Assembly (NCBI RefSeq): GCF_017901135.1
Contig: NZ_CP072801.1
Span: 2,849,501-2,913,500 of the forward strand
Length of the DNA: 64,000 nt
From: Thiothrix litoralis
GTDB taxonomy: Bacteria; Pseudomonadota; Gammaproteobacteria; Thiotrichales; Thiotrichaceae
Direction of reading: 5' to 3'
The first letter of the stretch is position 1, and each line of letters begins with the position of its first letter. Made by a program: the position numbers and the translations under genes. Below, piece by piece: positions 1 through 15,161 of the stretch. Below the pieces are notes generated by a model that worked only from the letters and a program-made list of their open reading frames with translations, did no database searches and was not told where the DNA came from.

Positions 1-17
1 CCCACCTTTTACCAACC
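1..17. promoter_or_regulatory. CCAACC direct-repeat element, copy 1 (window edge)
   Basis: The window opens with CCCACC-TTTTA-CCAACC. This is the same direct repeat, with half-sites 11 bp apart, that precedes three PQQ-system transcription units further right. The first half-site has one mismatch and may be cut by the window edge. By position it would serve a leftward gene outside the window, possibly the ATPase partner of the ABC permease; that is inference. Confidence 0.45.
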
Positions 18-91
18 TGCGGGGATCCAGAACAATTGTGGAATGGCTTTATTTGATTTGAGGAAAATGGTTATTGTGCATATCCCCATCT

Positions 92-532
92 TCAGGGATG
101 CTTTGTTCCTCTGACCCGCAGTGCACCACTATCAAAGCTGTAAACAGCCTCAATTGGCTCACCCCATTGCTTGGCAGTCTGTTTGGCTTTGTAAATGATC
201 AAGGTGTCAGGAAAATCGGGCAGTTTGAGCTTCTTGCCTGTTTCATCTTGGGTAGGGCGTTCTGTGCGGAATTCACTTAAAGCTGCCCACACAGCTTGTG
301 GATTTTCAAACACGATATTGGGTTCACTCAGCAAGTCACTGATCAGTTTGATAATATCGTCACGGCTGGCTTGGTACTTTTTACCACTCAATGTCCAGAC
401 CGTTTCGATCAACACAACATCTGTCACCAATACCTTGGCGTGTCGCTCAATTAACTGGGTTGCTAATGGAGATTGTTGTTCATCATCCTGTAACACATGG
501 CGCAATAACACATTGGTATCAATGGCAATCAT
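92..532 (-). CDS. PIN-domain toxin (VapC-like ribonuclease)
   Basis: A 146-residue PIN-domain protein, probably the RNase toxin of a type II toxin-antitoxin pair. The N-terminus MIAIDTNVLLR carries the first catalytic Asp, with further acidic residues in the middle (VLIETVW) and near the end (FDSGA). The start at 532 is chosen because the PIN fold begins there; an upstream in-frame ATG would add ten unrelated residues. The start lies inside the end of the upstream antitoxin gene, so the two are translationally coupled. The pair interrupts an otherwise PQQ-related neighbourhood and is probably an acquired module. The RNA target cannot be told from sequence. Confidence 0.85.
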   Translation of the reverse strand: MIAIDTNVLLRHVLQDDEQQSPLATQLIERHAKVLVTDVVLIETVWTLSGKKYQASRDDIIKLISDLLSEPNIVFENPQAVWAALSEFRTERPTQDETGKKLKLPDFPDTLIIYKAKQTAKQWGEPIEAVYSFDSGALRVRGTKHP

Positions 533-743
533 GCAGCGCATCCTGTAAGGATTCATTATCACGAATAGCTATGCGGGGCTTGAGGTGTTGCAGGCTGCCA
601 GCACTGCTACCCACAACCTTTTTAATCACGGTTAGCTTGCCGTTGAATTCAAAGATTTCCACGTAATCACCGGGAAAAATACCGGTTTGATCACACAAGT
701 CTTTGGGTAAGGTGACTTGGCGTTTACTGCTTACTTTGTGCAT
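519..743 (-). CDS. AbrB/MazE-family antitoxin
   Basis: A 74-residue protein with an N-terminal swapped-hairpin AbrB DNA-binding domain (MHKVSSKRQVTLPKDLC, then GDYVEIFEFNGKLTVIKK). It probably neutralises the adjacent PIN toxin through its C-terminal tail and represses its own promoter. Its last codons overlap the toxin start by 14 bp. A perfect 10-bp inverted repeat lies about 20 bp upstream of its start and fits an autoregulatory operator. Assignment to the AbrB fold is confident; the toxin partnership is inferred from overlap and family precedent. Confidence 0.85.
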   Translation of the reverse strand: MHKVSSKRQVTLPKDLCDQTGIFPGDYVEIFEFNGKLTVIKKVVGSSAGSLQHLKPRIAIRDNESLQDALHDCH

Positions 744-763
744 GATCGGTAGCCTCTAATAAA

Positions 764-789
764 GTTTTACTATTCGATTATAGTAAAAC
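764..789. promoter_or_regulatory. Inverted repeat upstream of the antitoxin
   Basis: Perfect arms GTTTTACTAT and ATAGTAAAAC are separated by 6 bp. The repeat lies just upstream of the antitoxin start at 743 and overlaps where its promoter should be. It is a likely operator for the AbrB-type antitoxin. Confidence 0.6.
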
Positions 790-837
790 CAAGTGGCTCA
801 GCAAGCAAATGAAAGATATTGCTGGTGAGCATCGGCC

Positions 838-1644
838 TCAAGCCTGCCGCGCTTTCTTCACCAACCCATGCTGCGGGTCATACCCCCACACCGCCAGCAG
901 GAAAAACAGGATCAAAGCGCCCAATACGACCAGAGAGGAGAGGAGGTTGAATTGGCCGTAAAGGGCAAAACGGATCATTTCCACCGCATGGGTGAACGGG
1001 TTGAAGCGTGTCAGCGTATACACAATGACTGCCCCCGACTCCTGCAATTTCCATAACGGATACAGTGCGGTGGAAAGAAAAAACATCGGGAAAATCACGA
1101 AATTCATCGTCCCCGCGAAGTTTTCCAATTGGCGCACGGATACCGACAGCAGCAGCCCCAACGCACCCAACATCAAACCGCCCAGCACCAGCGCAGGCAA
1201 GGCATACAGCCACCCCGACCACGGAATATCCACCTTGAACACCGCGCACAAGGCCAAGAAAGCATAGGCTTGCAACACCGACAACACTGTTCCCGCGACC
1301 AGCTTGCTCAACAGCAAAAACCAGCGCGGTTGCGGCGCAATCAGCAACAAACGCATCAAGCCCATTTCGCGGTCATACACCATGGCCAGCGACGACTGCA
1401 TCCCATTAAACAGCAACACCATTCCCAGCAACCCGGGTACGACGTAGACCTGATATTCAATATACGTGTCGTAAGGTGGGATAATCGACACCCCGAAAAT
1501 ATTCTGGAATCCGGCAGCGAACACCATCAACCATAAGGCCGGGCGTACCAGTGCCGACAACAAGCGTCCGCGCTGATGCCAGAATTTGATGGTTTCGCGC
1601 TGACTGATTGCCAGCATTGCAGGCCAATGCCTTGTGGTTGCCAT
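838..1644 (-). CDS. ABC-2 type permease of the PQQ alcohol-dehydrogenase system (PedC-like)
   Basis: A 268-residue inner-membrane permease with six or so hydrophobic segments and the ABC-2 pattern. It resembles the PedC-type permeases that occur with PQQ alcohol dehydrogenases. The ATG at 1644 is preferred over the adjacent GTG at 1647 because a GGGAG ribosome site lies at 1651-1655. No ATP-binding subunit is present in the window; it may lie to the left. The CCAACC direct repeat at 1701-1717 is 57-73 bp upstream and suggests co-regulation with the dehydrogenase. The exported substrate is unknown. The family assignment is good; the role in alcohol oxidation is inferred. Confidence 0.82.
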   Translation of the reverse strand: MATTRHWPAMLAISQRETIKFWHQRGRLLSALVRPALWLMVFAAGFQNIFGVSIIPPYDTYIEYQVYVVPGLLGMVLLFNGMQSSLAMVYDREMGLMRLLLIAPQPRWFLLLSKLVAGTVLSVLQAYAFLALCAVFKVDIPWSGWLYALPALVLGGLMLGALGLLLSVSVRQLENFAGTMNFVIFPMFFLSTALYPLWKLQESGAVIVYTLTRFNPFTHAVEMIRFALYGQFNLLSSLVVLGALILFFLLAVWGYDPQHGLVKKARQA

Positions 1645-1700
1645 CACCGCCTCCCGTTGATTTGCTTATCCTTGATACCGCAAAGCGGGCGGTTTATCTA

Positions 1701-1717
1701 CCAACCTTTTACCAACC
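1701..1717. promoter_or_regulatory. CCAACC direct-repeat element, copy 2
   Basis: CCAACC-TTTTA-CCAACC, two identical half-sites 11 bp apart. It lies upstream of the leftward permease gene and touches the stop codon of the ATPase gene at 1717. The same element recurs at 3102-3122 and 10895-10911. Confidence 0.65.
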
Positions 1718-3024
1718 TAAGCCTCTAAATCCGCCAGCGAAAACCCCCGATAGGTGATCGCATAACCTGACAAACGTTGTTCCAGCCGCTGCGCTTTGGC
1801 TTTGAGATGGCTCAAACGTAAGTTATCGGGGTTACGTTTCACTTCGGCAATCAGCGCGGTTTTGCTGAAGTCGTTGACCGCCACAATGTCGATTTCGTTT
1901 TTGTTGCCCGCTTCCCAGTAATTGCCAATCAGGTTGTACTCGCCCGTGGCGGCAAGCTGGGCGCGGAACAGTTGCTCCAGCCATGCGCCGCTGTAGGTGG
2001 CAAAATCCCGCGTAATCGCTTGGCGGAGGAAGGCGAAGTTTTCGATTTCCACCGCGCTGCGATAACGATAGATAAAGCGAAACCAGAAGCTCAGGAACGC
2101 ATCCTGGATACGGTATTTGATCTGTCGGCTGTTGGGGGTGGCGAATACCGGCGTAACGCGCTGGATAATGGCGAAGTCTTCCTCCAGCCGTTTCAGGTAA
2201 GGGCCGATGGACATTTCCAGCACCGATTCAATTTCGCTGCGGCTGGTTTTGCCGCTGGCTAAAGTGGCAAGAATGGAAAAGTAAGTGCTTTGTTCTGCGC
2301 CGAATTCTTCCGCGAGCCGATAACGGCCTTCTTCGATCACCAGACTGAACTCATTGATCAGGCTTTCCCACAAGTCGCGTTGCGGGTCGGTTTGTGCCAG
2401 CCATTCGAGGTATTTCGGCACACCGCCGCTCAAGGTATACCACGTCAGCAGGTTATCCGCGCTGTAACGCCCGCTGTCATGCAGCAATTCGGCAAGGTAG
2501 GCGGGCTTGAGCGGTTGCAGGTTAATACGGTGATCGGCACGCCCGAACAGCGGTTCTTTGCTGTCCTGAAACAGTTTGGTCATCAGCGAATACAGCGAAC
2601 CGCAACAAATCAGGTGCAGTTTGCAACGCGGGCGGTACTGATCCCAAAGGTTTTGCAGTTCGGAAAATACCGCCGGGTTTACCCGCGCAATGTCCTGAAA
2701 CTCATCCAGAATCAGTGTTAGCGGCTGGGTTTGCGCGTACTGGAACAGGATTTCCAGTACTTCACGCAAGCTGCGGGGTTGCCCGAAAATCGGCAGATTT
2801 AATTGCGTGCGGATTTGCTCGGTGAATTCTGCGCACAACAGCGGCTCGGCTTTGCGGGAAATGAACAGGTAGAGGGCTGAACCTTGGTAGGTGTGAGCCA
2901 ATAAGCCCGTTTTGCCGACACGCCGCCGCCCCACCATCAGGGTCAGGCTGGATTTGCCTTCTGCTGCTTGCTGTGACCACAGGCGCAATTGCTGCTGTTC
3001 GCTGTCACGGTTGTAGAATTTCAT
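1717..3024 (-). CDS. AAA ATPase with C-terminal DUF234-type nuclease-like domain
   Basis: A 435-residue protein of the archaeal-ATPase/DUF234 class. Walker A is GRRRVGKT at residues 32-39 and Walker B is LTLILDEFQD near 102-111. A winged-helix stretch follows. The C-terminus has a PD-(D/E)xK-like pattern, NEIDIVAVN then LIAEVKR. Members of this class are common, often mobile and poorly characterised. It sits between the permease and the propeller operon and has no obvious link to alcohol oxidation. A 14-bp palindrome just upstream of its start (3036-3049) is a possible operator. The biochemical role is unknown. Confidence 0.8.
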   Translation of the reverse strand: MKFYNRDSEQQQLRLWSQQAAEGKSSLTLMVGRRRVGKTGLLAHTYQGSALYLFISRKAEPLLCAEFTEQIRTQLNLPIFGQPRSLREVLEILFQYAQTQPLTLILDEFQDIARVNPAVFSELQNLWDQYRPRCKLHLICCGSLYSLMTKLFQDSKEPLFGRADHRINLQPLKPAYLAELLHDSGRYSADNLLTWYTLSGGVPKYLEWLAQTDPQRDLWESLINEFSLVIEEGRYRLAEEFGAEQSTYFSILATLASGKTSRSEIESVLEMSIGPYLKRLEEDFAIIQRVTPVFATPNSRQIKYRIQDAFLSFWFRFIYRYRSAVEIENFAFLRQAITRDFATYSGAWLEQLFRAQLAATGEYNLIGNYWEAGNKNEIDIVAVNDFSKTALIAEVKRNPDNLRLSHLKAKAQRLEQRLSGYAITYRGFSLADLEA

Positions 3025-3035
3025 TTGGATTTACC

Positions 3036-3049
3036 GTAATAATTATTAC
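3036..3049. promoter_or_regulatory. 14-bp palindrome upstream of the ATPase gene
   Basis: GTAATAATTATTAC is a perfect palindrome 12 bp before the start codon of the leftward ATPase gene, with another GTAAT half-site right after it. It is a candidate autoregulatory operator. Confidence 0.4.
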
Positions 3050-3091
3050 AGTAATTTATCTTACGCTAGCTGGGTAGGGATAGGTAGTGTA

Positions 3092-3122
3092 GCAACTTTT
3101 TCCAACCAACCTTTTTCCAACC
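3092..3122. promoter_or_regulatory. CCAACC direct-repeat element, copy 3 (double)
   Basis: Two overlapping copies are present. GCAAC-TTTTT-CCAACC spans 3092-3107 and CCAACC-TTTTT-CCAACC spans 3106-3122. Within each copy the half-sites are about 11 bp apart. The cluster lies 49-79 bp before the GTG start of the propeller gene at 3171, where an activator or repressor site would be expected. Confidence 0.65.
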
Positions 3123-3170
3123 ACCTTCCCACTACAGTGACCCGCAAGTGCCATTGATGAGGAGGACATC

Positions 3171-4154
3171 GTGAAACACCTGCACCCGCTATTCACCCTG
3201 CCACTGCTGTCGATCAGTCTGCTGGCCACCCCCACTTTCGCCAAAGATACCGGCTACGCTTTCGTCAGCAGCGAAAACGACCACATTGTCACCGTGTTGG
3301 ATGGCAAAACCTTTGCAAAAGTTAAAGACATCAAAACCTCCAAACGCCCACGCCATTTGCAATTCAACCCCGATAAAACCTTGCTGTACGCCGCCTGCGG
3401 TGAAGGTGCCAGCATCGACGTGATCGACGTTGCCACGCTTGAAGTCATCGACAAGATTGAGGATGTCGAAGACCCCGAAGCCTTCGATTTCAGTCAGGAT
3501 GGCAAACAAATGTTCATCTCCCTCGAAGATGACGGTGCATTAGGAATTCTCGACGTTGCCAGCAAAAAAATGCTCAAGGAAGTCGAAATCGGTGAAGAAC
3601 CTGAAGGTGTCCTGACCAGTCATGACGGCAAAAGTGTGTATGTCACCTCCGAAGTCGCCAATACCGTGCATGTGGTCGACATTGCCAGCCAAGCGGTGAA
3701 AGCCAATATTGTGGTGGGCGAACGTCCGCGCCGCTTTGCCACCACGCCTGACAATCAGGAACTGTGGGTGACAAGCGAACTGGATGCTTCCATCAGCATC
3801 ATCAACCTCGCCGACAATACCCTCAAAGAAAAAATCACCTTTGCTCCCGAAGGTTTCCGCAAGGAAGACATTACCCCCGTCGGCATTAGCATGACCCGTG
3901 ATGGCAAAACCGCCTTCGTCACCATCGGGCGGGCGAATCGCGTGGCGGTGGTGGATGTGGTTTCCCGCAAGGTCACGGATTACATTCTGGTCGGCGAACG
4001 TGCGTGGAATGCGGCATTGAACAAGGATGAGTCGCTGTTGTTCGTGGCGAATGGCTTGAGCGATGACGTATCCATCGTCAATGTGGCAGACCGTAAAGTG
4101 ACCAAATCCGTTCCGGTTGGGCGTGTGCCCTACATGGTGGTGGTCGATGATTAA
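3171..4154 (+). CDS. PQQ-system-associated YVTN-type beta-propeller protein
   Basis: A 327-residue secreted protein of seven-bladed propeller type, matching the beta-propeller family that accompanies PQQ-dependent alcohol catabolism. A signal peptide of about 24 residues ends in TPTFA. It is followed by repeated blades containing GKTVFVT- and VVDxxS-like strands about 42 residues apart. The GTG start has an AGGAGG site 5-10 bp upstream. The 3' end overlaps the next gene by 8 bp, giving an operon of two. Function is unproven; a scaffold or ligand-binding role in the periplasm is likely. Confidence 0.85.
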   Translation: MKHLHPLFTLPLLSISLLATPTFAKDTGYAFVSSENDHIVTVLDGKTFAKVKDIKTSKRPRHLQFNPDKTLLYAACGEGASIDVIDVATLEVIDKIEDVEDPEAFDFSQDGKQMFISLEDDGALGILDVASKKMLKEVEIGEEPEGVLTSHDGKSVYVTSEVANTVHVVDIASQAVKANIVVGERPRRFATTPDNQELWVTSELDASISIINLADNTLKEKITFAPEGFRKEDITPVGISMTRDGKTAFVTIGRANRVAVVDVVSRKVTDYILVGERAWNAALNKDESLLFVANGLSDDVSIVNVADRKVTKSVPVGRVPYMVVVDD

Positions 4155-5325
4155 GCGTTGCGGCACTTGGCTGGTGTGTTTGTGGGTCGGTTGCGCCAGC
4201 TTGCCCGTGTTTGCCGCGCAAACCCTCAGCATCGGGTATGTGCAGCAAAGCGCTGACCCGCGTTACGACGACAAGCACATGACTGCGCAATTTCTGGGGC
4301 AAGCCTTGGGTCGCCCATCTGTGGGGGCAGAAGTGGCACTCAAGGAAGTGAAATTCCACGGGCAAAACGCCGGTATCGACTTTGTGCTGGAACAAGCTGA
4401 AGCGGCAACAGCGGCAGAGCTGGTCAAACAAGTGGAAACCCTGCAAGCCAAAGGGGTGCGCTTTATCCTCAGCGATTTGCCTGCACCCACCTTGAGCGAA
4501 GTTGCCAGCGCCTTCAAAGGCAAAGACGTAGTGTTTTTCAATGTCTCCGCCCCCGATGACAGTTTGCGTCAGGCACAGTGTCAAGCGGTCGTGTTTCACA
4601 CCTTGCCCAATCACGCCATGCAAGCCGATGCCTTGGTGCAATACTTGGTCGCACACAAGTGGAAAGAAGTGTTGGTGTTGGAAGGCGCAGCGCCAGAAGA
4701 CCAGTTGCTGACCGCTGCCTTCGAGCGGGCTGCCAAGCGTTACGGCGCAGAAATCGTTGCCAAACGCCCGTTTGTGTTGGGCAATGACCCACGTGAGCGC
4801 GACAAGAACAATATTGCGCTGCTGACCGGAGATGAAGATTACGATGTGGTTTATATTGCCGACAGTCACGGCGAATTTGCCCGCAATGCCGCTTACCAAA
4901 CGCTGTTGCCGCGTCCGGTGATTGGTGCGGAGGGCTTGAATGCGCTGGCATGGAACTGGGCGTGGGAACGCCACGGCGCACCGCAAGTCGAGAAGCGTTT
5001 CGAGAAAAAAGCCGCCCGCCGCATGAGTGACCCCGATTGGGCAGCTTGGATGGCAGTCAAAGCGATTGCCACAGCGGTACAACAAACCAATGGGGCTGAT
5101 TTTGCCAAGTTGCGGGATTTTCTGACCGCGCCCGATACCACGCTGGATGGCGCAAAAGGCAATGCCAGCAGCTTCCGCCCGTGGGATCATCAGTTACGTC
5201 AGCCGCTGCTACTGTCGACGCATAACTGGGTGGTAGATCGCGCCCCGCTGGAAGGTTTCTTACATCAAACCAATAATCTCGACACGCTAGGCTTCGACGA
5301 GCGCGACAGCCAGTGTAAGTTTTAA
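4147..5325 (+). CDS. Periplasmic substrate-binding protein of the PQQ-linked ABC system (type 1 fold)
   Basis: A 392-residue type 1 periplasmic-binding-protein fold of the branched-chain amino-acid receptor class. It resembles the binding proteins found with PQQ alcohol dehydrogenases. A signal peptide ends near PVFAA. Start 4147 is chosen because the signal peptide MIKRCGTWLVCLW begins there and the ATG overlaps the stop of the propeller gene. Its stop overlaps the stop of the convergent C-x3-C-W gene by 4 bp. It is probably the partner of the permease at 838, though the type 1 fold is unusual for an ABC-2 exporter. The ligand is unknown. Confidence 0.82.
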   Translation: MIKRCGTWLVCLWVGCASLPVFAAQTLSIGYVQQSADPRYDDKHMTAQFLGQALGRPSVGAEVALKEVKFHGQNAGIDFVLEQAEAATAAELVKQVETLQAKGVRFILSDLPAPTLSEVASAFKGKDVVFFNVSAPDDSLRQAQCQAVVFHTLPNHAMQADALVQYLVAHKWKEVLVLEGAAPEDQLLTAAFERAAKRYGAEIVAKRPFVLGNDPRERDKNNIALLTGDEDYDVVYIADSHGEFARNAAYQTLLPRPVIGAEGLNALAWNWAWERHGAPQVEKRFEKKAARRMSDPDWAAWMAVKAIATAVQQTNGADFAKLRDFLTAPDTTLDGAKGNASSFRPWDHQLRQPLLLSTHNWVVDRAPLEGFLHQTNNLDTLGFDERDSQCKF

Positions 5326-5894
5326 TCCATATCCACAGGACTGACCGTGACCAAGGGTAGTCCTGCTTCTGCCCACCCATCCGTGCCATCCTTGAACCAA
5401 TACACCTGCGTGTAACCGTACTGGCGTACCCGTTGCACGGCATTCCACGACATCCAACAATCCGCTACGCAAAAGAATACCAGCGGTTTGTGTTTGTCGC
5501 CGCCGCTCAAACGTTGCAGGTTGGTTTGCAAATACGTGTCGATTTCCGGCGCTAACTCCCCGTAACCGACGTTCGGCAACCACACCGCGTTCGGCAAACT
5601 TTCATGCACGTCATTGGGCAGCCAGACGCTGGGGAAGCCTGCTTCCTGACGCAACAGAATCGCCCACACATCAATCAGCACGGGGGATTCAGGGCGTTGT
5701 AGCAAGGTTTGCAAGGCTGTCACATTCAGCGTGATGCTATTGGGAACACACGCCGGGGTTGCCCCCCGGTAATGTGCCATTTTTAACCCCGCTGGCATAT
5801 CCGGGGTACGTTCACAGTCAGCTAAACCCAAATCCGGCTGACAAGCAGGTAAGCAAAGGCAATAGAGTGGGAGGAGGAGATTGCCCCATTTCAT
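5322..5894 (-). CDS. PQQ-associated rhodanese-like lipoprotein (C-x3-C-W motif)
   Basis: A 190-residue rhodanese-like protein of the family associated with PQQ-dependent catabolism. A lipobox LCLPAC puts the lipidated Cys at residue 18. The hallmark motif CVADCW has Cys142, Cys146 and Trp147, followed by MSWNA. Family names call it a CXXCW protein, but the spacing here is C-x3-C-W. It starts in a 3-bp overlap (ATGA) with the stop of the metallohydrolase gene, so it ends the dehydrogenase operon. A redox or sulfur-relay role in the periplasm is likely but unproven. Confidence 0.85.
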   Translation of the reverse strand: MKWGNLLLPLYCLCLPACQPDLGLADCERTPDMPAGLKMAHYRGATPACVPNSITLNVTALQTLLQRPESPVLIDVWAILLRQEAGFPSVWLPNDVHESLPNAVWLPNVGYGELAPEIDTYLQTNLQRLSGGDKHKPLVFFCVADCWMSWNAVQRVRQYGYTQVYWFKDGTDGWAEAGLPLVTVSPVDMD

Positions 5895-6823
5895 TCTGCT
5901 GGCTTCGCCGGTTTCAGGTGTGCTTGTTCCAGCGCCGGGTACAGATGGCTGACCGAGCGCCGTAATTCATGTTGCACCAACGCGACGTGTTGGAAGTCGG
6001 CTGGAATCGGTGTTTGCATCACCTCCAACATATCCAGCCCGTGTGCGGCGGCATCTTCAAGCGTGGTTTGCAGCCATTGCAAATACGCACGGGTTTGTTG
6101 AATCGGGGCGGTGTCGCTGGCGACGTTGCCATGCCCCGGCACGAGCGTTTTAAAGGGCAAGGCTTGCAAGCTATCCAACGTTGTTAACCACATCGCCAGC
6201 GTTGCGTGTGGGGTCGTCGCCGCACGGTTATTGAACACTAGGTCGCCGGAAAACAAGACACCGGTGGTGTGATCAAACAGCACTAAATCGCCAGCGGTAT
6301 GCCCTTGTAGGGCAATCACTTCCAGTTCATGCCCACCGACGGTTTCCTTGCCTGCTTTGGCATCTTGGGTGGGCGGGGTGACGCGGGTATCGCGCATCCA
6401 ATCACCGACCATGCGGTACATATTGCCGTTGAAGGTTTCGCCTTCCGCCTTGATGCCGTCACGGGTCGCGGGTAGGGCGTAAATCGGTACATCGGTATAC
6501 GTTTGATTGCCCAGAAAGTGGTCGGGGTGGTGGTGGGTAATGTACACACGCACCACTTTTTTGCCAGTAAGCTTTTCAATCACCGCGCGTTGTTGTTCGC
6601 CAAAACGCCGCGATACGCCGGTATCAATGACTACCACGCCCGCCGTGGTGACAATAAAGCCGGTGTTGACGATGAAACCGCCATTCTGTTTGGAAAAATC
6701 CTCGGTTTTGCCTTCGATGACGTAGGTGTCGGTGGCCACTGGCTGTGGTTGTAGTGGGTACTCGAAACTCTCCGCCACTGCCGTAGCGTTTACCAGTAAC
6801 AGCATGAGTAACCAGCGTTTCAT
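5891..6823 (-). CDS. Quinoprotein relay system zinc metallohydrolase (SoxH-like)
   Basis: A 310-residue metallo-beta-lactamase-fold protein with a signal peptide (MKRWLLMLLLVNATAVAES). Zinc ligands are HHHPDH at residues 97-102, GHTAGD further on and VPGHG. It matches the SoxH-related hydrolases encoded with quinoprotein dehydrogenases. Both ends overlap neighbours by 3-4 bp, so it is tightly coupled to the SoxYZ-like carrier upstream. In the Sox paradigm such enzymes may act on a carrier-bound thioester or thiol; a similar reaction on the adjacent carrier is a reasonable inference. The substrate is not known. Confidence 0.87.
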   Translation of the reverse strand: MKRWLLMLLLVNATAVAESFEYPLQPQPVATDTYVIEGKTEDFSKQNGGFIVNTGFIVTTAGVVVIDTGVSRRFGEQQRAVIEKLTGKKVVRVYITHHHPDHFLGNQTYTDVPIYALPATRDGIKAEGETFNGNMYRMVGDWMRDTRVTPPTQDAKAGKETVGGHELEVIALQGHTAGDLVLFDHTTGVLFSGDLVFNNRAATTPHATLAMWLTTLDSLQALPFKTLVPGHGNVASDTAPIQQTRAYLQWLQTTLEDAAAHGLDMLEVMQTPIPADFQHVALVQHELRRSVSHLYPALEQAHLKPAKPAE

Positions 6824-7566
6824 GGGGTCACCTCCGCTGCAATCTTGTTGCCGTTGTTGTCGCGTCCTTCCAGTGTGAAGGTGGTGTTTTTGCCGACATC
6901 CAGGCTCAGCATGGGGTTTTCACTGATCGGCTCGTACAGGTCGAGTTCGGCCAGTACCTGACCTTGCGCGTCTTTGACGTTGAGGTTTTCAATGTGGAAG
7001 GTGGGAATGCCGCTGGCTAAGCCAGTATCCATCGGGTGCATGACGCGGATGCGCAAGCGATTGTTGTCGGGGTGTTTCCATACATTTGCCGAGACTTGCC
7101 CCAGCGTTTTGCTCCAGTCACCGCTGGATGTGCCGAGACTGGGTAAGGTGCAACCGCCGCCTGCCGCTTCGACATACGTGCCGCCAACATGCCATAGCCC
7201 GTCAGCGGTTTTCACGGCGACCCGCACCGGGCTGCCTTGTTGCAACTTCATGCGGAAGGCAAGGTTCGGGGCGATGGTTTTGGGGCGAAAGTTCAGCACG
7301 TGTGGCAGCGGGTTGAGATCCGCAAACACGCGCATTTCCTGTATTCCCTGCAAGTCCGTCACCCGTAAGGCGATGGGAACATTGAGTGAATCTTCCGCCT
7401 CTGGTGGGGCTTCTACCGTTACCTTGCTGTCGAAGGTGTACGGCTCGCCGTTGAGGAAACGCGTGTGCATCGCCTCCCATTGCGGGGAGTTGAGGGGGTC
7501 AGGTTCTGCCGCTACTGCCGTTTGACAGAGCAGGCAGAACACCAGCCATCGACCATGCCTGATCAT
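6820..7566 (-). CDS. Quinoprotein dehydrogenase-associated SoxYZ-like carrier
   Basis: A 248-residue exported fusion resembling SoxY followed by SoxZ. The signal peptide ends near TAVAA (residue 20). The SoxY-like half ends in GGGCT with Cys139, matching the swinging-arm cysteine of SoxY, except that GGGCT continues into the SoxZ-like half instead of ending the protein. The SoxZ-like half covers roughly residues 155-248. It is probably a covalent carrier for an intermediate of alcohol or aldehyde metabolism rather than of thiosulfate. It overlaps the metallohydrolase start and follows the binding-protein gene with a 6-bp gap. Confidence 0.85.
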   Translation of the reverse strand: MIRHGRWLVFCLLCQTAVAAEPDPLNSPQWEAMHTRFLNGEPYTFDSKVTVEAPPEAEDSLNVPIALRVTDLQGIQEMRVFADLNPLPHVLNFRPKTIAPNLAFRMKLQQGSPVRVAVKTADGLWHVGGTYVEAAGGGCTLPSLGTSSGDWSKTLGQVSANVWKHPDNNRLRIRVMHPMDTGLASGIPTFHIENLNVKDAQGQVLAELDLYEPISENPMLSLDVGKNTTFTLEGRDNNGNKIAAEVTP

Positions 7567-7572
7567 AAAGCC

Positions 7573-8436
7573 TCACTTCTGGGCGGTTGCCACAGGGGGT
7601 TCTGCTGCTGGGTTGTACGTCAGTTTGTATTGCTCGAAAATCTTTTTCACGGAGCCGTCTTTAACCAACTCTGCCATCCCGCCATCCACGGCGCTGGCGA
7701 GGTCGGCATTATCGGCTTTCACCGCCACGCCCATCGCCCAACTGCCACGGCCTAAACCGGGGGTAATCAAACCTTGAATTTGGATATTGTCCGGGCGTGC
7801 GCTTAACACGCCTTCGAGTTCACCGCGTGGCCCCATAATGCCTGCAATTTCACCTTTTTTCAGGGCATCGGCGGCTTGCGTAAGGTTGGGGAAATGCCGG
7901 ATATTTTTGCTGATTTGCCCTTGTAAGGCTTCTAGCAAGTAAAAGTCGCTGAGGGTGTCGATTTCAACCCCGATGGGGGCGCTGGTGAAATTCGCTAGCG
8001 TCGGTTGCTTACCCACTTTGCTGGTATCAAAGGCAAACGTGACTTGCTCCATCTGATACGGGGCGACGAATTTGACCTTATCCACTTTGTCGGAAAAAGC
8101 ATTGTCGTAGGGCATGTGTAACATCATATCGGTAACACCACCGCCGAGGTAATGGCCTTTCCAAACGTTATTGCGTAGGTCGTCTTCGACGTTTTCATCG
8201 GCACTGACCAGCCGAATTTCGCTTTTTACACCCAATTTTTGGGCGAGGGCTTCGGCAATGGCGACGTCTACGCCTTGTTGTTTGCCATCAATCACGGATG
8301 AATACGGGGGGAATTCTTTGTACAGGGAAATGCTTAACACGCCTTTGGCTTTGACTTCCTCCAGCGTACCAGCGTAGAGCGGGGCAGCGAATAATAGGGC
8401 GCTTAACCCGAGTGTGCTTAATGTGGTCAATTTCAT
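7573..8436 (-). CDS. Quinoprotein dehydrogenase-associated periplasmic binding protein (MoxJ/XoxJ-like)
   Basis: A 287-residue amino-acid-binding-type periplasmic protein with a signal peptide ending in PLYAG. Its SLYKEFPPYSS and GVDVAIAEALAQKLG segments are typical of the binding proteins linked to quinoprotein dehydrogenases, the MoxJ/XoxJ class. XoxJ is thought to help activate or mature lanthanide methanol dehydrogenases, which would fit here. It lies downstream of the cytochrome gene with a short hairpin between (8464-8480), which may lower its expression relative to the dehydrogenase and cytochrome. Confidence 0.85.
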   Translation of the reverse strand: MKLTTLSTLGLSALLFAAPLYAGTLEEVKAKGVLSISLYKEFPPYSSVIDGKQQGVDVAIAEALAQKLGVKSEIRLVSADENVEDDLRNNVWKGHYLGGGVTDMMLHMPYDNAFSDKVDKVKFVAPYQMEQVTFAFDTSKVGKQPTLANFTSAPIGVEIDTLSDFYLLEALQGQISKNIRHFPNLTQAADALKKGEIAGIMGPRGELEGVLSARPDNIQIQGLITPGLGRGSWAMGVAVKADNADLASAVDGGMAELVKDGSVKKIFEQYKLTYNPAAEPPVATAQK

Positions 8437-8463
8437 GGTGTATCCTCCTCTGCATGAGAAAAC

Positions 8464-8480
8464 CCCTCTTGGGGAGGGGC
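8464..8480 (-). terminator. Hairpin between cytochrome and binding-protein genes
   Basis: On the minus strand CCCCTC and GAGGGG form a 6-bp stem with a 5-nt loop, followed by TTTTC. It lies after the cytochrome stop and before the binding-protein start. It is a weak intrinsic terminator or attenuator. Confidence 0.45.
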
Positions 8481-8487
8481 ATAACGA

Positions 8488-8961
8488 CTATTTTTTTTCT
8501 TCTGGTTTGGCGGCGTCTTTGGGGGGCGCATCGACCGAAACGGTTTCCAGCCATGAGCGGATTGCCCATAAACCTTCCTGAGCCACAATGCCGTCAAATT
8601 TGGGCATGTAGGTGACGCCGTTACGGATTGCGCCATTGATCATGCGTTCCCGGAAAATTTCATCGCCTTCTGTACCCAACGGAAGGGTTTCGCGTAAGTC
8701 GGGGGCAATGCCACCCGAAATGGCATCAATGCCGTGGCAACGGGCGCAGTTTTGGGCGAATGCGTGATGCCCGATTTCAGCCGCCCTTTCGTTACCGGAA
8801 TACGGGTTGGTTTCCTCCCATGTCGCGCTGTCCTTGAGTGGATCAAGCCCTGAAATATTAATGGCTTGTGGGGTGACATCACCGTGGGCAAACGCATTGG
8901 TGGCAGCAACCAATGCTAAAGCTGCCAGTGCAGCGGAAACAGAACGTGTTGCGATTTGCAT
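8488..8961 (-). CDS. pedF: Cytochrome c-550 PedF
   Basis: A 157-residue periplasmic monohaem cytochrome c. The signal peptide ends NAFA-HG. The haem motif is CARCH (Cys72, Cys75, His76), and a Met ligand is available in the YMPKF segment. It matches the PedF-type c-550 that accepts electrons from PQQ alcohol dehydrogenases. Its position directly after the dehydrogenase gene supports that partnership. The C-terminus ends in a charged Lys/Glu tail. Confidence 0.9.
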   Translation of the reverse strand: MQIATRSVSAALAALALVAATNAFAHGDVTPQAINISGLDPLKDSATWEETNPYSGNERAAEIGHHAFAQNCARCHGIDAISGGIAPDLRETLPLGTEGDEIFRERMINGAIRNGVTYMPKFDGIVAQEGLWAIRSWLETVSVDAPPKDAAKPEEKK

Positions 8962-9002
8962 AGTACATACCTTCGATCAAAGAAAAGCCCATTCCGCGTT
9001 GT

Positions 9003-9024
9003 GGCGGGGTGGTTGCACCCCGCC
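9003..9024 (-). terminator. Strong hairpin between dehydrogenase and cytochrome genes
   Basis: A 9-bp GC-rich stem, GGCGGGGTG with CACCCCGCC, has a 4-nt loop. It lies after the dehydrogenase stop at 9038 in the minus-strand transcript. No U-run directly follows. It may protect the 3' end of the dehydrogenase mRNA or act as a partial terminator that gives dehydrogenase in excess of downstream proteins. Confidence 0.5.
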
Positions 9025-9037
9025 CGCGTTGTCGGGG

Positions 9038-10795
9038 TTAAGAGGTTGTTTTAGGCAGTTTGAATACCCACAGACTGCCACCTTGATTGAGGTGTTTGAT
9101 GGTCTTGGCGACTTCCCCCCCCCACAGTGGTACCGCGCCACCCCAGCCGGAAGGCACGGCGACGAACTGTTCGCCATCCTGTTCCCACGTGGTTGGGCAG
9201 CCAACGACACCGGAACCTGTTTGGAATTTCCACAGTTCTGCGCCTGTTTTGGCATCAAAGGCTTTCAGGTAGCCTTCGGGTGTGCCGGTGAAGACCAGAT
9301 TGCCAGCGGTGGTCAGTACGCCGCCCCAAAGTGGCGCTTTGTTTTTGGCTTCCCAGACGATTTTGCCGGTTTTCGGATCCATCGCCCGCAGTGAGCCGAT
9401 GTAGTCTTCGTTCAACGGTTTGATGGTGAAACCTGCACCAAGGTAAGCCGCGCCTTTTTTGTAGCTGATCGGCTCGTTCCAAATGTCCATGCCCCATTCG
9501 TTGGCGGGGATGTAGAACAGGTCAGTGCCGGGGTTGTAGGCCATTGGCATCCAGTTTTTGCCCCCGAGGAAGGAGGGTGCGGAGAACACAGATGTGCCTT
9601 TGGCTTCGCTGCCCGGTGCGCCGGGGCGGTTGGTGTCGTCGTATTCAGGGCGACCGGTTTCTAGATTAATGCCTTTTGCCCACGTGATTTTATTCACGAA
9701 TGGGGTGGCGTTGATCAGCTTGCCGTTGGTGCGATCCAAGACATAGAAGAAGCCGTTGCGGTCAGCGTGACCACCGGCTTTGACAATCGTGCCATCGTCT
9801 TTTTTCAGGTCAAATGATACGAATTCGTTGACGCCGTCAAAGTCCCAACCATCATGCGGTGTCCATTGGTAATGCCATTTGATCTTGCCGTCCGCCGGGT
9901 TGATGGCAAGTACGGAAGAGGAGTACAGGTTGTCGCCGGGGCGTAAATGCGAGTTCCACGGTGAAGGGTTGCCCGTGCCGAAGAACAGGCTGTCGGTTTC
10001 AACGTCGTAAGTGCCACCTAACCATGTCGCCGCACCGCCTGTTTTCCACAGGTCGCCCGGCCAAGATTTGTTGGTTTCGCCGGTAATGCCGTTGTCTTGG
10101 CCGTTGAGTGTACCCATGTGGCCTTCCACGGTGGGGCGTGACCAGATCAGTTTGCCGGTTTTGGCATCCCGCGCTTCGACTTTACCCACCACGCCGAATT
10201 CACCGCCGGAGACGCCCGTAATGACCATGCCTTTCACCACGATAGGCGCGGCTGTGTTGGAATAACCGGCTTTGAAGTCTTCCATTTTTTCTTTCCAGAC
10301 GACTTTGCCGGTGTCCTGATCGAGGGCAACCAGTTGTGCGTCGAGGGTGGAGAAAATGAACAAGTTGTCGTACAACGCGCCGCCACGGTTTACCACGTCG
10401 CAGCACGGCATAATGCCTTCGGGTAAGCGGTGGTCGTATTGCCAGATTTCTTCGCCGGTTTTGGCATCGGCGGCGAATACGCGGGAATAAGAGGCGGTGA
10501 CGAAGATTTTACCGTTATGCACCAAGGGTTGCGCTTCCTGACCGCGTTGCTTTTCATCGCCGTAAGACAGCACGAAGGCGGGAGTGAGGTTTTTCACCGT
10601 CTCGGTATTCAGCTTGTCCAGCGTGCTGAAACGTTGGCCTTGCAAGCCCATGCCGTAACTCACGACATCATTGGTGGTTTTGGCATCGTCAGCAATGTCT
10701 TGGTCGGTCACGGTGGCATGGGCTAGCGGGCTACTAAAGGCACAACTGACGGTCAGTACCAGCAACAGTCTACGGAAGGTACGCTCTTGTTTCAT
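9038..10795 (-). CDS. PQQ-dependent alcohol dehydrogenase, lanthanide-type (PedH/ExaF-like)
   Basis: A 585-residue secreted eight-bladed quinoprotein that oxidises primary alcohols in the periplasm. The signal peptide ends in LAHA (near residue 27). Visible PQQ-site features are the vicinal Cys131-Cys132, metal-ligand candidates Glu199 (GGEFG) and Asn276 (GTGNPSPWN), and catalytic Asp318 in WDFD. The second Asp (Asp320) two residues later is the mark of lanthanide-dependent enzymes; calcium enzymes usually have Ala, Ser or Thr there. The overall pattern, including [15 protein letters not shown], is closer to ethanol dehydrogenases (ExaA/PedE/PedH) than to XoxF methanol dehydrogenases. It heads a six-gene operon. 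The CCAACC element lies 100-126 bp upstream. Confidence 0.88.
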
Positions 10796-10894
10796 GGGGG
10801 GATTCTCCTCTCCAGCTAAAGCAAATATCTAGGTTGACCCCGTAACAGCCTCCTATGCCACTACAGGTACTGGAAAGCAGCTTAATGAAGAGCA

Positions 10895-10920
10895 GGTTGG
10901 AAAAAGGTTGGGCAAGTTGG
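10895..10920. promoter_or_regulatory. CCAACC direct-repeat element, copy 4
   Basis: On the plus strand GGTTGG-AAAAA-GGTTGG, followed by AGTTGG about 9 bp further. On the minus strand this reads as CCAACC-TTTTT-CCAACC. It lies 100-126 bp upstream of the dehydrogenase start at 10795. Confidence 0.65.
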
Positions 10921-10993: not shown

Positions 10994-11788
10994 ATGACTA
11001 TTTCTGTTTTTCACCATTCTATGCGCATCAGTTGCGCACTGCTGCTACTGGCTTCTGGTGGCAGTGCTTATGCCGACAGTAGTACGCATACTGGCCAAGG
11101 CACTTTCTATGATTATAGTGGCGGGGGCAATTGCAGCCTGCCGGTTCCCACTACCACCCTGACGGCGGCGATGAATGCAAGCGACTACGCCAATTCGGCA
11201 GCCTGCGGTGGGCTTATCAAGATAACCAACAACGCTACGGGGCTGAGCGTCACGGTGCGGGTTGATGATCAGTGCCCTGAATGTGCGCCCGGCAATGTCG
11301 ATCTTGATCAGGATGCCTTTGCGCAGATTGCTAATCTTGACACGGGTATTATTCCGATCAGTTGGCATTATGTCGCCAATGATCAAGTGGGTAATCTCAA
11401 ACTCTATGTGGAGGAAAGTTCCAGTCAATGGTGGATGGCGGTGCAGGTGCGCGACCATCTCTATCCGATTGCAAAACTGGAAGCACGCACTGCTGGTTCT
11501 GGCAATGCCTACACGACCATCGCGCGGGAATCACACAATTACTTTGTTGCGCCCAGTGGTTTGGGGATTGGGCCTTACGATTTTCGGATCACGGATTTCT
11601 GGGGGCAAACCATCGACGTTCCCAGCATTCCGCTAATGCCGGGAGTGGAACTCGATACGGGTACACAATTTGATGTGTACGATGAATCTGCTGCCACTAG
11701 CACTAGCAGTGGAGCTGGCGCTACAGATTGGCCGATATTGCTTCTGTTGGGAGGATTGTTGACGCGGCGTTTGCAGTGGGGTAGGTAG
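10994..11788 (+). CDS. Expansin-like secreted protein with sorting-tail-like C-terminus
   Basis: A 264-residue protein with the two-domain layout of bacterial expansins. A signal peptide ends near SAYA (residue 27). The first domain is a double-psi beta-barrel (GQGTFYDY, then AMNASDYAN and CGGLIKITN, then VRVDDQCPECAPGNVDLDQDAF). The second resembles a cellulose-binding module (SSQWWMAVQVRDHLYPIAKLE). Expansins loosen polysaccharide networks without hydrolysis. The last 35 residues are a Ser/Thr/Gly linker, a hydrophobic WPILLLLGGLL segment and an Arg-rich end, like GlyGly-CTERM sorting tails. The first ATG (10994) is used; an internal Met at residue 10 is an alternative start. Confidence 0.8.
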   Translation: MTISVFHHSMRISCALLLLASGGSAYADSSTHTGQGTFYDYSGGGNCSLPVPTTTLTAAMNASDYANSAACGGLIKITNNATGLSVTVRVDDQCPECAPGNVDLDQDAFAQIANLDTGIIPISWHYVANDQVGNLKLYVEESSSQWWMAVQVRDHLYPIAKLEARTAGSGNAYTTIARESHNYFVAPSGLGIGPYDFRITDFWGQTIDVPSIPLMPGVELDTGTQFDVYDESAATSTSSGAGATDWPILLLLGGLLTRRLQWGR

Positions 11789-12190: not shown

Positions 12191-13755
12191 GTAACTGTTC
12201 ACGGGCTTGCAACTGCCAGAGTCTGAGCTATGCTTGAAAGATGAACGAGCTAACGATCACCACCGATTTTACTGATATTGCGTTGCCAACCGATTTGGCA
12301 GCTTCTCAGCAGCTTAACCGTGATCTGCTGACGTTGGTGGTTGCGTTGCAGGCACGGGTAAAACAACTGGAAGCGGAACTGACAGAACTGAAAGAACGCC
12401 TGAATGACTCCTCCGCGAACTCCTCTAACCCACCGTCACGTGACACGCCCGAACAACGCGCCCAACGCGAGCGCAAACCGAAAAGCCCGTTAAAACGCGG
12501 CGGTCAGCCAGGACACAGCAAACATGAACGCGCCTTGGTGGAGGAATCACGCCTGGATGCTATCCAGCATTACTATCCCGAAGGCTGTTGCCGTTGTGGT
12601 GGTCATCTGGTGCTGGAAAACACGCCGAGCCAGCGTCATCAGGTATTTGACCTACCGGAAGTTGCTTATCAAGTAACGGAACACCGCCTGTATGCGGGTA
12701 CGTGTAGTTGCTGCGGGAAACGTCAGGTAGCCGAGTTACCCGAAGACATCCCCAGCGGGCAGATGGGTGCTGGCTTGATCAGTTGGATCACCCTGATGAA
12801 CGGGGCGTGCCGCCTGTCCACGCGGCAAATCCAGTTACTGCTGGAAGAACAATGGCAGTTATCCTTCAGTAGCGGTGCGATCAGTGAGGCTACTGCCCCC
12901 GTCAGCCGTTGGTTAGCACCCTTATATGCTCAGGCGGGTGATGCGGTGCGTAGCAGCCCGGTGGTAAACGCGGATGAAACCAGTCACTACCGTGGGCGCG
13001 AACGTGAATGGTTATGGGTGATGTGTTCGCCACAGGTGGTGTACTTCATGACGCATTACTCACGCGGCAAAGGTGCAGCGGACGAATTGCTGGGAAAATT
13101 CAATGGCGTACTCGTGACCGACCAGCACGGCGGCTATAATCACCACCCCAATGAACGACGGCAACTGTGCTGGGCGCACATTATCCGTAAGTTCAAAAAA
13201 ATAGCACAACGTTACGGGCGTGCAGGCATCTTAGGGAAGCGTTTGCTGCGTCTGGCACGCCTGATTGTCCACTTGCATAACCGCAAGCTCGCAGGTGCTT
13301 ACTCGGACAGGTTGTACCGGCAACGCATGGATAAACTCCGCGAAGCCTTCCGCCAGACATTGGTAGCAGGTAGCGGCTTACGTCAAGCACAACATCCTGA
13401 TAAGCCGACTAAAACCGCCAACCAGTGCCAACGCTTACGGGATGATGACCTGATGTTATGGACATTTTTGCGTCATTCCGGTGTTCCTCTGACCAACAAT
13501 GCTGCCGAACGGGCTATCCGCCCCTATGTCATCTGGCGTAAGACCAGCTTTTTTAGCCAATCTTTCCGAGGTGATCAATTCCGCCCGTTAATACTGACTA
13601 TCGTGGAAACCTGCAAACGCCTAGGTATCAGCGCTTACCGAATTATCCGCCAAGCGTGCCAGCAGGCATTGGCTAAAAAGCCGGTGACGGTGCGTTTGCC
13701 TATTCCCCCTCCGCGAGTATTGAATCCGGTGACTGGATTTGTTGCCGCTTAAGGT
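12191..13755 (+). mobile_element. IS66-family element (single transposase gene), right end missing
   Basis: The IS66 transposase is preceded by GTAACTGTTCACGGG at 12191, which is similar to IS66-type ends and coincides with the point where TnpB homology stops. No inverted copy is found before the IS4 element at 13756 or just after it. The right end therefore seems lost or cut by the IS4 insertion. The left boundary is an inference. Confidence 0.5.
12241..13752 (+). CDS. IS66-family transposase (TnpC)
   Basis: A 503-residue DDE transposase. The N-terminal coiled coil has a Leu/Glu-rich region near residues 45-70 followed by NDSSANSSNPPSRD. A zinc-binding region follows (CCRCGG, CSCCGK). The catalytic core has VNADET, VTDQHGGY and NNAAERAIR, covering the three acidic residues. 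The length is normal for TnpC, and no TnpA or TnpB accessory gene lies beside it, as in single-gene IS66 relatives. The start lies 3 bp after the end of the TnpB remnant frame. Confidence 0.92.
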   Translation: MNELTITTDFTDIALPTDLAASQQLNRDLLTLVVALQARVKQLEAELTELKERLNDSSANSSNPPSRDTPEQRAQRERKPKSPLKRGGQPGHSKHERALVEESRLDAIQHYYPEGCCRCGGHLVLENTPSQRHQVFDLPEVAYQVTEHRLYAGTCSCCGKRQVAELPEDIPSGQMGAGLISWITLMNGACRLSTRQIQLLLEEQWQLSFSSGAISEATAPVSRWLAPLYAQAGDAVRSSPVVNADETSHYRGREREWLWVMCSPQVVYFMTHYSRGKGAADELLGKFNGVLVTDQHGGYNHHPNERRQLCWAHIIRKFKKIAQRYGRAGILGKRLLRLARLIVHLHNRKLAGAYSDRLYRQRMDKLREAFRQTLVAGSGLRQAQHPDKPTKTANQCQRLRDDDLMLWTFLRHSGVPLTNNAAERAIRPYVIWRKTSFFSQSFRGDQFRPLILTIVETCKRLGISAYRIIRQACQQALAKKPVTVRLPIPPPRVLNPVTGFVAA

Positions 13756-15161
13756 CATCTCCTTATACACAAGTCCCAAGCTGATGTAAGATAAGCAATT
13801 TTCACCTATGAACTGGTCATCTAGCGAACTCACCGATCTTGATTTGGGAGACAAGCGCCTCGAAACACGCGCCGCCCATATTCTCAATGCCATGCTGAAA
13901 GCGCCCCAATCCAGCCTCCCCAAGGCTTGCCAGAGTTGGTCAAGTACCTTGGCGACGTACCGTTTCTTCTGGAATGAGGCGGTGAGCCATGATGCTTTGA
14001 TGGCATCCCACTTTGAAGCGACAGAGTGCCGAATCCGTCAACAAGACTCGAAGATTATCCTGTGCATTCAAGACACCACCGAATTGGACTTCAATGGACA
14101 GGAAACCGAGGGCTTGGGGCGGTTATCCTACGATAAGCAACGCGGGATGTACCTGCATCCGACCTTGTGTATCACCCCGGAACGCCTGCCGTTGGGCATC
14201 ACCGATACGTGGATGTGGTCACGGGGCTTGAGCAAAGCCGCCGACCAAGCGAACCCCAGCATCAAAGAAAGCCGTCGCTGGATCGAAGGGTATGAACGGG
14301 TAGCCGAACTGGCGGCACGCTGCCCCGGACACCGGCTCATCTATACGGGCGACCGGGAAAGCGACTTTTACGACTTGCTCAAACGGGCACAAGTCTTGGA
14401 TTACCCGGCTGACCTGCTGATACGGGCGCAACATAACCGTGCCTTAGGAGATGACCTAAAACTGTGGGATGCCATTGAGCAACAACAGGCGTTGACCCGC
14501 ATCACCTTTACCAAACCGCGCAAGCAGGGTGAAAAAGCCCGCAAAGTGGTACAGGAAATCAAGGTGTTACGTTATACCCTGCGTCCCAAGAGCAAGCACC
14601 CGATGTTATTGACCTTGGTTCAAGCCAAAGAAATCAACCCACCCGCCGGAAAATCGCCCCTCATTTGGCGTTTAGTCACCAACCGTTGTGTAGAGACCGC
14701 CGATGCCGCCGGTGAACTCATCGACTGGTATCGGGCGCGTTGGGAAATCGAAATGTTTTTTGATGTCCTGAAAGTTGGCTGTCGCGTCGAAAAACTGCAA
14801 CTGGACACTAAAGAGCGCATCGAAAAAGCCCTCGCGCTCTACATCATGGTGGCCTGGCGGATTATGTTTCTGATGCGGTTGGGGCGTACCTGCCCAGAAC
14901 TTCCGGCTGAGCTGGTGTTTGACCCGCTGGAATGGAAAGTATCCTTCCGGCTCGGCAAAAAAGCACTGCCCGATGGCATACCTACCCTCAATCAAGTGAT
15001 CCGCAATCTGGCAGAACTGGGGGGCTTTCTGGGCAGAAAATGCGATGGCGAACCGGGAGCCAAAAGTATCTGGTTGGGCTACTCAAGGGTGCTGGACTGT
15101 ATTTATGGGATTCAGATGGCTAGTGAATTGGGGGAAGGACTGATTTGTGTATAAAGAGATG
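13756..15161 (+). mobile_element. IS4-family, IS50-like insertion sequence
   Basis: The transposase gene is flanked by near-perfect inverted repeats. The left end is CATCTCCTTATACACAAGTC (13756-13775) and the right end, read inward, is CATCTCTTTATACACAAATC (ending at 15161); 18 of 20 bases match. The ends resemble the Tn5/IS50 mosaic end, especially the CTTATACACA core. Flanking 9-mers (GCTTAAGGT and, 1 bp out, GCTAAAGGA) are similar but not identical, so a clean target duplication is not shown. Confidence 0.8.
13808..15154 (+). CDS. IS4-family (IS50-like) transposase
   Basis: A 448-residue DDE transposase of the Tn5/IS50 type. The N-terminus WSSSELTDLDLGDKRLETRAAHIL is the family's DNA-binding domain. 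Catalytic positions are Asp in QDTTELDF, Asp in YTGDRESDFYDLL, and Glu in the YREK-like motif WYRARWEIEMFFDVLK. The length fits an intact enzyme. The stop lies 7 bp inside the right inverted repeat region, as in compact IS4 elements. Confidence 0.92.
   Translation: MNWSSSELTDLDLGDKRLETRAAHILNAMLKAPQSSLPKACQSWSSTLATYRFFWNEAVSHDALMASHFEATECRIRQQDSKIILCIQDTTELDFNGQETEGLGRLSYDKQRGMYLHPTLCITPERLPLGITDTWMWSRGLSKAADQANPSIKESRRWIEGYERVAELAARCPGHRLIYTGDRESDFYDLLKRAQVLDYPADLLIRAQHNRALGDDLKLWDAIEQQQALTRITFTKPRKQGEKARKVVQEIKVLRYTLRPKSKHPMLLTLVQAKEINPPAGKSPLIWRLVTNRCVETADAAGELIDWYRARWEIEMFFDVLKVGCRVEKLQLDTKERIEKALALYIMVAWRIMFLMRLGRTCPELPAELVFDPLEWKVSFRLGKKALPDGIPTLNQVIRNLAELGGFLGRKCDGEPGAKSIWLGYSRVLDCIYGIQMASELGEGLICV

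Follow-up and report, generated by a model that had tools for sequence, protein, structure and literature searches.

Which protein reads the direct repeat CCAACC-N5-CCAACC that precedes genes of a pyrroloquinoline quinone (PQQ) alcohol dehydrogenase system in Thiothrix litoralis? We addressed this question in a 64,000-nucleotide stretch, hereafter the window, covering positions 2,849,501-2,913,500 of a single 4,284,843-base contig (genome G000). Our explanation, to which we assign a probability of about 0.82, is that the repeat serves as the operator of a cytoplasmic one-component regulator, DhaR-SARP, that switches on alcohol and aldehyde oxidation genes. Judged from comparative sequence evidence, the repeat is a conserved and true operator, and it very probably belongs to DhaR-SARP. 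The operator, its conservation, the geometry relative to the -10 region, the predicted fold, and the co-location and co-occurrence of regulator and operator were computed; binding, activation and signal are what we infer.

In the window, the exact form occurs three times (Table 1). A preliminary description of this DNA had listed the repeat at 1-17, 1701-1717, 3092-3122 (double) and 10895-10920. Three of these sites are indeed exact; the first has one mismatch, in its first half-site, and the double copy consists of an exact site and a weak one at 3091-3107, which overlaps it and differs from CCAACCTTTTTCCAACC at four positions. No second copy was found in the 15-25 bases upstream of the orthologous sites in two relatives (G004 and G005). 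The copies do stand upstream of the permease, the propeller operon and the dehydrogenase operon, as had been claimed. A scan of the window allowing two mismatches gave 12 matches versus 8.85 expected, and at least 12 were reached in 19 of 100 shuffles; at this chance level, only the exact form is informative.

Nor is the element strewn at random across the genome, which holds four exact copies including the three in the window. The fourth has a different spacer and lies inside a 487-codon stop-free frame, lacking a TA at 10 or 11 bases after the repeat (+10/+11). One-mismatch matches number 54, two of them being the copy at 1-17 and the one upstream of ExaC; all 26 others that were examined fall inside stop-free frames of at least 168 codons. 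The pattern CCMACC-TTTTN-CCAACC, with zero mismatches, has five genomic copies, and all five precede genes of one system: ExaC, a substrate-binding protein, PedC, the propeller and the PQQ dehydrogenase, starting at about -11,208, about -61, 1647, 3171 and 10795, respectively, in window coordinates. A control with the pattern reversed is weak because the half-sites are identical when read backwards. An Rfam search of the window at gathering thresholds produced no match.

The position of the repeat relative to a predicted -10 box was analyzed in 89 sites that had no more than one mismatch. A TA begins at +10 in 22 of them and at +11 in 34, while 37 other offsets give 0-14; thus, 9-10 bp separate the operator from the predicted -10. 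When the 22 sites were aligned on +10, T was the sixth hexamer base in 19. In the reverse direction, TA occurs at +24 in 21 of the 89 sites (other offsets, 1-15), and 14 of these 21 are directed at PedC or substrate-binding genes, in most cases with the hexamer TATCAA; this offset of 24 bases recurs upstream of the relatives' PedC and substrate-binding-protein genes. Nine sites combine both TA features.

The same genes carry the element in relatives, and it marks a PQQ/alcohol regulon, as proposed earlier. We compared 16 genomes of the genus Thiothrix, counting zero-mismatch copies of CCMACC-TTTTN-CCAACC. The eight with a strong propeller match hold 4-10 copies each, the other eight 0-1. In 28 stretches from 20 genomes, picked by operator hits or propeller matches, sites precede ExaC, pqqA, pqqC, PQQ dehydrogenases, the propeller, a porin, a 224-residue cytochrome-like protein, PedC and the substrate-binding protein. 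PqqA peptides with a common KW-KPAF-EMRYGFEINLYIMNR are encoded between the site and pqqB in all five genomes examined. No small gene is claimed between the paired operators that precede the porin: one was sought in five genomes, and the peptides were unlike. ExaC with its operator occurs together with a regulator orthologue in 14 of the 16 genomes; G008 and G014 have neither ExaC nor a regulator orthologue. The latter possesses a 46% paralogue and three one-mismatch matches, of which the two inspected (L050 and L064) fall inside long open frames and have no TA at +10/+11. Six genomes have the regulator without the propeller and keep the site upstream of ExaC (G002 also at the regulator), and in G010 a site lies between a regulator paralogue and ferredoxin/AOR-like genes. 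The regulon extends beyond PQQ and lanthanides: the most conserved target is the NAD-type aldehyde dehydrogenase ExaC, joined elsewhere by AOR-like and molybdenum-hydroxylase genes.

A regulator paralogue (55%) at L114:12217-17125 stands back to back with genes for a ferredoxin, an AOR-like protein and an FAD reductase (NCBIfam matches below cutoff), and the near-operator CCAACCTTTTTGCAACC lies between it and the ferredoxin/AOR-like genes. Gene order at L194 of Thiolinea disciformis is identical.

The preliminary description had also pointed to a LuxR- or OmpR-type regulator near the locus. Neither Response_reg nor Trans_reg_C matched any protein of the window or of the interval between the window and ExaC; the candidate, DhaR-SARP, is instead encoded outside, about 6.8-8.0 kb to the left. 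Its predicted fold comprises an N-terminal DhaR-type sensor (GAF) and a C-terminal SARP output (residues 217-394). The N-terminal part, a SWQRS segment plus a GAF module, matches the DhaR(N) structure over 179 residues with a root-mean-square deviation of 1.9. The C-terminal half is predicted to have two features of SARPs, an OmpR-type winged helix and, immediately behind it, a helical bacterial transcriptional activation domain, with structure matches to AfsR and EmbR; the Foldseek and VIA lists hold mainly GAF-like folds, and this half was compared via the AfsR and EmbR rows only. Among 15 members of the family, no match was found to Response_reg, AAA+ (E up to 0.1) or a Fis-type helix-turn-helix, nor did Response_reg match at the candidate's place in G000. 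Of the earlier suggestion that the 11-bp period fits a dimeric response regulator, one part stands, as the period points to an OmpR-type DNA-binding domain; a two-component response regulator is unsupported, the best candidate having no receiver match.

Does the operator travel with this protein? With the regulator profile as the sole query, 180 relatives came up, and the analysis was limited to the best 80 loci: 31 in a first group, 40 actinobacterial and 9 of the Methyloversatilis type. They come from Thiothrix, Thiolinea, Leucothrix, Granulosicoccus, Thiohalocapsa, Competibacteraceae, Zetaproteobacteria, Methyloversatilis and Actinobacteria (among others Nocardioides, Janibacter, Knoellia and Actinomadura). 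All 80 match both regulator halves, including the C-terminal half of the T. lacustris protein. The exact operator is present in 20 of the 31 first-group loci, with TA at +10/+11 in 20, and in 31 of the 40 actinobacterial loci, with TA so placed in 29. In the Actinobacteria, half-site spacings between 0 and 15 other than that of the operator do not occur, and none of 14 permuted half-sites appears in more than two loci; in the first group, other spacings appear in up to four loci and the permutation CCCAAC in nine, these nine being the same repeats shifted by one base. The Methyloversatilis-type loci carry a CC[AT]ACC form with TA at +11 in 9/9. An attempt to tie their CCTACC variant to one recognition-helix residue was dropped, since Thiohalocapsa has the same residue with CCAACC.

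Upstream of ExaC, 28 promoters were scored on 15 conserved bases with a threshold of 12. It was reached by 16 of 17 first-group promoters (L172 and L179 in reverse orientation; L185 fell below) and by two of three actinobacterial ones (L205 below); the eight of the Methyloversatilis type score 10 because of the variant half-site. Of 1600 pieces drawn at random from these loci, with the real sites left in, 52 reached 12. At L238 (Nocardioides), molybdenum-hydroxylase-type genes next to the regulator lie downstream of the operator (NCBIfam hits below cutoff); other Nocardioides loci resemble L238 by sequence heads only. PQQ genes of the reference set were not found in the actinobacterial stretches examined. 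Among 369 genomes sampled from the class, seven hold the full-length regulator, 11 the strict operator and five both; in four of these five, an operator copy lies within 3 kb of the regulator, and in G000 copies begin at 8.5 kb.

In the proposed model, a head-to-tail DhaR-SARP dimer would occupy the two half-sites on one helix face, one turn apart. The downstream half-site would replace the -35 box, 9-10 bp ahead of the -10, and the bound protein would recruit RNA polymerase in a class II-like activation, as AfsR does. The trigger may be a carbonyl compound or an alcohol; the only hint at this is that the target families found either carry out alcohol or aldehyde oxidation or assist enzymes that do. 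Co-activated genes would be those for the PQQ alcohol dehydrogenase and its accessory proteins, the PedC-type ATP-binding cassette (ABC) system and ExaC and, in relatives, pqqAB, pqqC and the porin. A wider idea strikes us as evenly balanced between true and false: that DhaR-SARP and its CCAACC operator form an old, mobile, carbonyl-responsive module common to Proteobacteria and Actinobacteria, with aldehyde itself as the signal. The module would have recruited enzymes that are unrelated but perform a common chemical task: NAD-dependent ExaC, PQQ alcohol dehydrogenases together with PedC-type transport, an AOR-like aldehyde ferredoxin oxidoreductase (via a paralogue) and aldehyde oxidoreductases of the molybdenum-hydroxylase kind.

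The protein resembles SARP activators (AfsR, ActII-ORF4, DnrI; EmbR) in joining an OmpR-type winged helix to a helical activation domain and in the placement of 11-bp direct repeats just upstream of the predicted -10; SARP repeats are spaced by 11 or 22 bp and lie about 8 bp upstream. Unlike SARPs, whose domain is normally N-terminal, it carries the module at its C-terminus, fused to a DhaR-type sensor, occurs in both Proteobacteria and Actinobacteria, and has alcohol/aldehyde oxidation genes rather than antibiotic clusters as predicted targets. With DhaR/AcoR-type sigma-54 activators it shares the N-terminal sensor segment, whereas their AAA+ domain and Fis-type helix-turn-helix are the ones unmatched in the family, and the sites are -10-like, not sigma-54 promoters. 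All domains of DhaR-SARP are known individually; the fusion, the operator and their spread were not found described, and searches of open-access PMC papers listed no title or abstract describing this operator or fusion.

Several observations weigh against our explanation. In G000, PF00486 missed the regulator at E 0.001 and a domain scan showed GAF only, so its SARP half is deduced from relatives and from the model; that half is C-terminal, SARP domains being normally N-terminal, and the site upstream of the regulator's own gene is degenerate in this genome, with four mismatches. Thirteen typical OmpR-type proteins encoded elsewhere in the genome are alternative candidates. The exact operator is absent from the stretch examined in 11/31 first-group and 9/40 actinobacterial loci. 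Several of the 31 come from the same genus, some from the same genome or overlapping stretches, and are not independent; neither are the sites within Thiothrix. In the class-wide sample, G329 and G105 have the regulator and show no operator in the short loci examined, the G179 copy lacks TA at +10/+11, and the strict operator is present in 6 of 362 genomes that lack the full-length regulator, one with TA rightly placed and one beside an ExaC-like gene. Finally, 21/89 sites have neither TA at +10/+11 nor the reverse +24, and plain class II activation does not account for the reverse-oriented TA+24 sites (21/89).

An arrangement of 11-bp-period direct repeats beside a -10 suits PhoB/OmpR-type regulators as well, whose pho boxes take the place of the -35 in the same manner, and AgmR (PedR1/ErbR) and PedS2-PedR2 of the Pseudomonas ped clusters are two-component/LuxR-type proteins. 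One report has these proteins controlling equivalent genes, a regulon of the same kind (PQQ dehydrogenases, ped and pqq genes), and mentions no GAF-SARP fusion in the sections consulted (PMC12997753). The operator might be bound by a two-component response regulator of the classical OmpR or LuxR type that senses lanthanide or alcohol. G000 has 14 Trans_reg_C and 53 Response_reg matches, and NtrC-like receiver and kinase-like genes lie about 5 kb left of the ExaC operator. We nonetheless consider this reading improbable. The nearest receiver, that NtrC-like gene, is about 16 kb left of the window and the nearest Trans_reg_C match about 90 kb to its right, and the candidate family, unlike PhoB/OmpR, has no receiver match. 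In contrast, the DhaR-SARP gene lies in or near the operator clusters of G007, G009 and G010 and adjoins ExaC or PQQ genes in many loci, and the operator accompanies it into actinobacterial stretches without the reference PQQ genes.

That DhaR-SARP binds the operator and mainly represses, an inducer relieving the repression, would agree with sites overlapping the promoter region and with those in G004, G006, G007 and G009 that point away from the regulator's own gene, 48-54 bp ahead of its start; it is unlikely, as the operator occupies the -35 position and the fold match is to activators. Least credible by far is that the element has no regulatory role and is a dispersed repeat or arose through local duplication. 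Copies do cluster in one region, and two flank the DUF234 ATPase gene like duplicated ends; yet in the 22 sites aligned on TA +10 the operator core and -10 stand out and the flanks do not, the element precedes ExaC in 14 genus genomes and recurs in loci of two phyla, and a -10 spacing conserved across phyla is hard to reconcile with such an origin.

If DhaR-SARP indeed acts through this operator, the control of alcohol/aldehyde oxidation, including PQQ systems of the lanthanide-transport kind, could be read from sequence in bacteria for which no described regulator was found. SARP-type activation would extend beyond antibiotic control and into Proteobacteria, and a single operator would be seen to persist in two phyla. 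The precision of the operator and of its -10 geometry means that a simple scan could list regulons in many genomes, and the regulator-operator pair could serve as an alcohol/aldehyde biosensor.

Table 1. Operators, -10-like hexamers and PQQ-system genes in the window
Feature	Position	Strand	Remarks
Operator CCCACC-TTTTA-CCAACC, one mismatch	1..17	+	Reverse-oriented site of the substrate-binding-protein gene (minus strand) starting at about -61, just left of the window
PedC-type ABC permease, TIGR03861	838..1647	-	373 bits, cutoff 241
-10-like TATCAA	1672..1677	-	Begins 24 bases after reverse-oriented operator
Operator CCAACC-TTTTA-CCAACC	1701..1717	+	Reverse-oriented, 54 bp upstream of PedC-type permease; abuts DUF234 ATPase stop codon
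Operator CCAACC-TTTTT-CCAACC	3106..3122	+	Forward, 49 bp upstream of propeller operon
-10-like TACAGT	3133..3138	+	Begins 11 bases after operator
PQQ-associated beta-propeller, TIGR03866	3171..4154	+	NCBIfam
ABC substrate-binding protein of PQQ alcohol dehydrogenase systems, TIGR03863	4150..5325	+	NCBIfam
PQQ-associated CXXCW protein, TIGR03865	5322..5894	-	NCBIfam
Quinoprotein relay zinc metallohydrolase 1, TIGR04558	5891..6823	-	NCBIfam
SoxYZ-like carrier, TIGR04557	6820..7566	-	NCBIfam
Periplasmic substrate-binding protein	7573..8436	-	SBP_bac_3
Cytochrome c550 PedF, TIGR04494	8488..8961	-	NCBIfam
PQQ-dependent alcohol dehydrogenase (methanol/ethanol-type), TIGR03075	9038..10795	-	783 bits, cutoff 480
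-10-like TAAGCT	10879..10884	-	Begins 11 bases after operator
Operator CCAACC-TTTTT-CCAACC	10895..10911	-	Forward, 100 bp upstream of dehydrogenase operon

The PQQ dehydrogenase of the window contains WDFDG, and a D-x-D at this position marks lanthanide-dependent enzymes. The PQQ-associated ATP-binding subunit reaches 299 bits in NCBIfam, just below the cutoff of 302; the PedA1A2BC transporter of Pseudomonas putida is reported to carry lanthanides (PMC12997753). PqqB and PqqC have no match in G000, although the PQQ dehydrogenase system is kept, and PqqB is present in 7/7 other genus genomes with the propeller. G000 may depend on external PQQ, and the porin-pqq side adjoining the regulator seems to have been lost.

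A DUF234/ATPase_2 gene (1717-3024) separates two operator copies. In G003 a single operator stands 66 bp from PedC on one side and 57 bp from the propeller on the other, and the ATPase gene looks inserted into a once shared divergent promoter; in G007 a gene with a nearly identical start sequence adjoins PedC. Between the permease and the substrate-binding-protein gene is a toxin-antitoxin-like pair (92-743; PIN-type and AbrB-type by sequence look). The NtrC-like gene (receiver confirmed) and the kinase-like gene (sequence look) occupy about 2,829,844-2,833,228 of G000 and adjoin molybdopterin-type oxidoreductase genes (sequence look). An expansin EXLX1-family gene (10994-11788) diverges from the PQQ dehydrogenase, 83 bp from the shared operator, and has two transposase-like genes (12241-15154, sequence look) to its right; in G005 (T. 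lacustris), a gene with a nearly identical start stands at the same place as the expansin gene.

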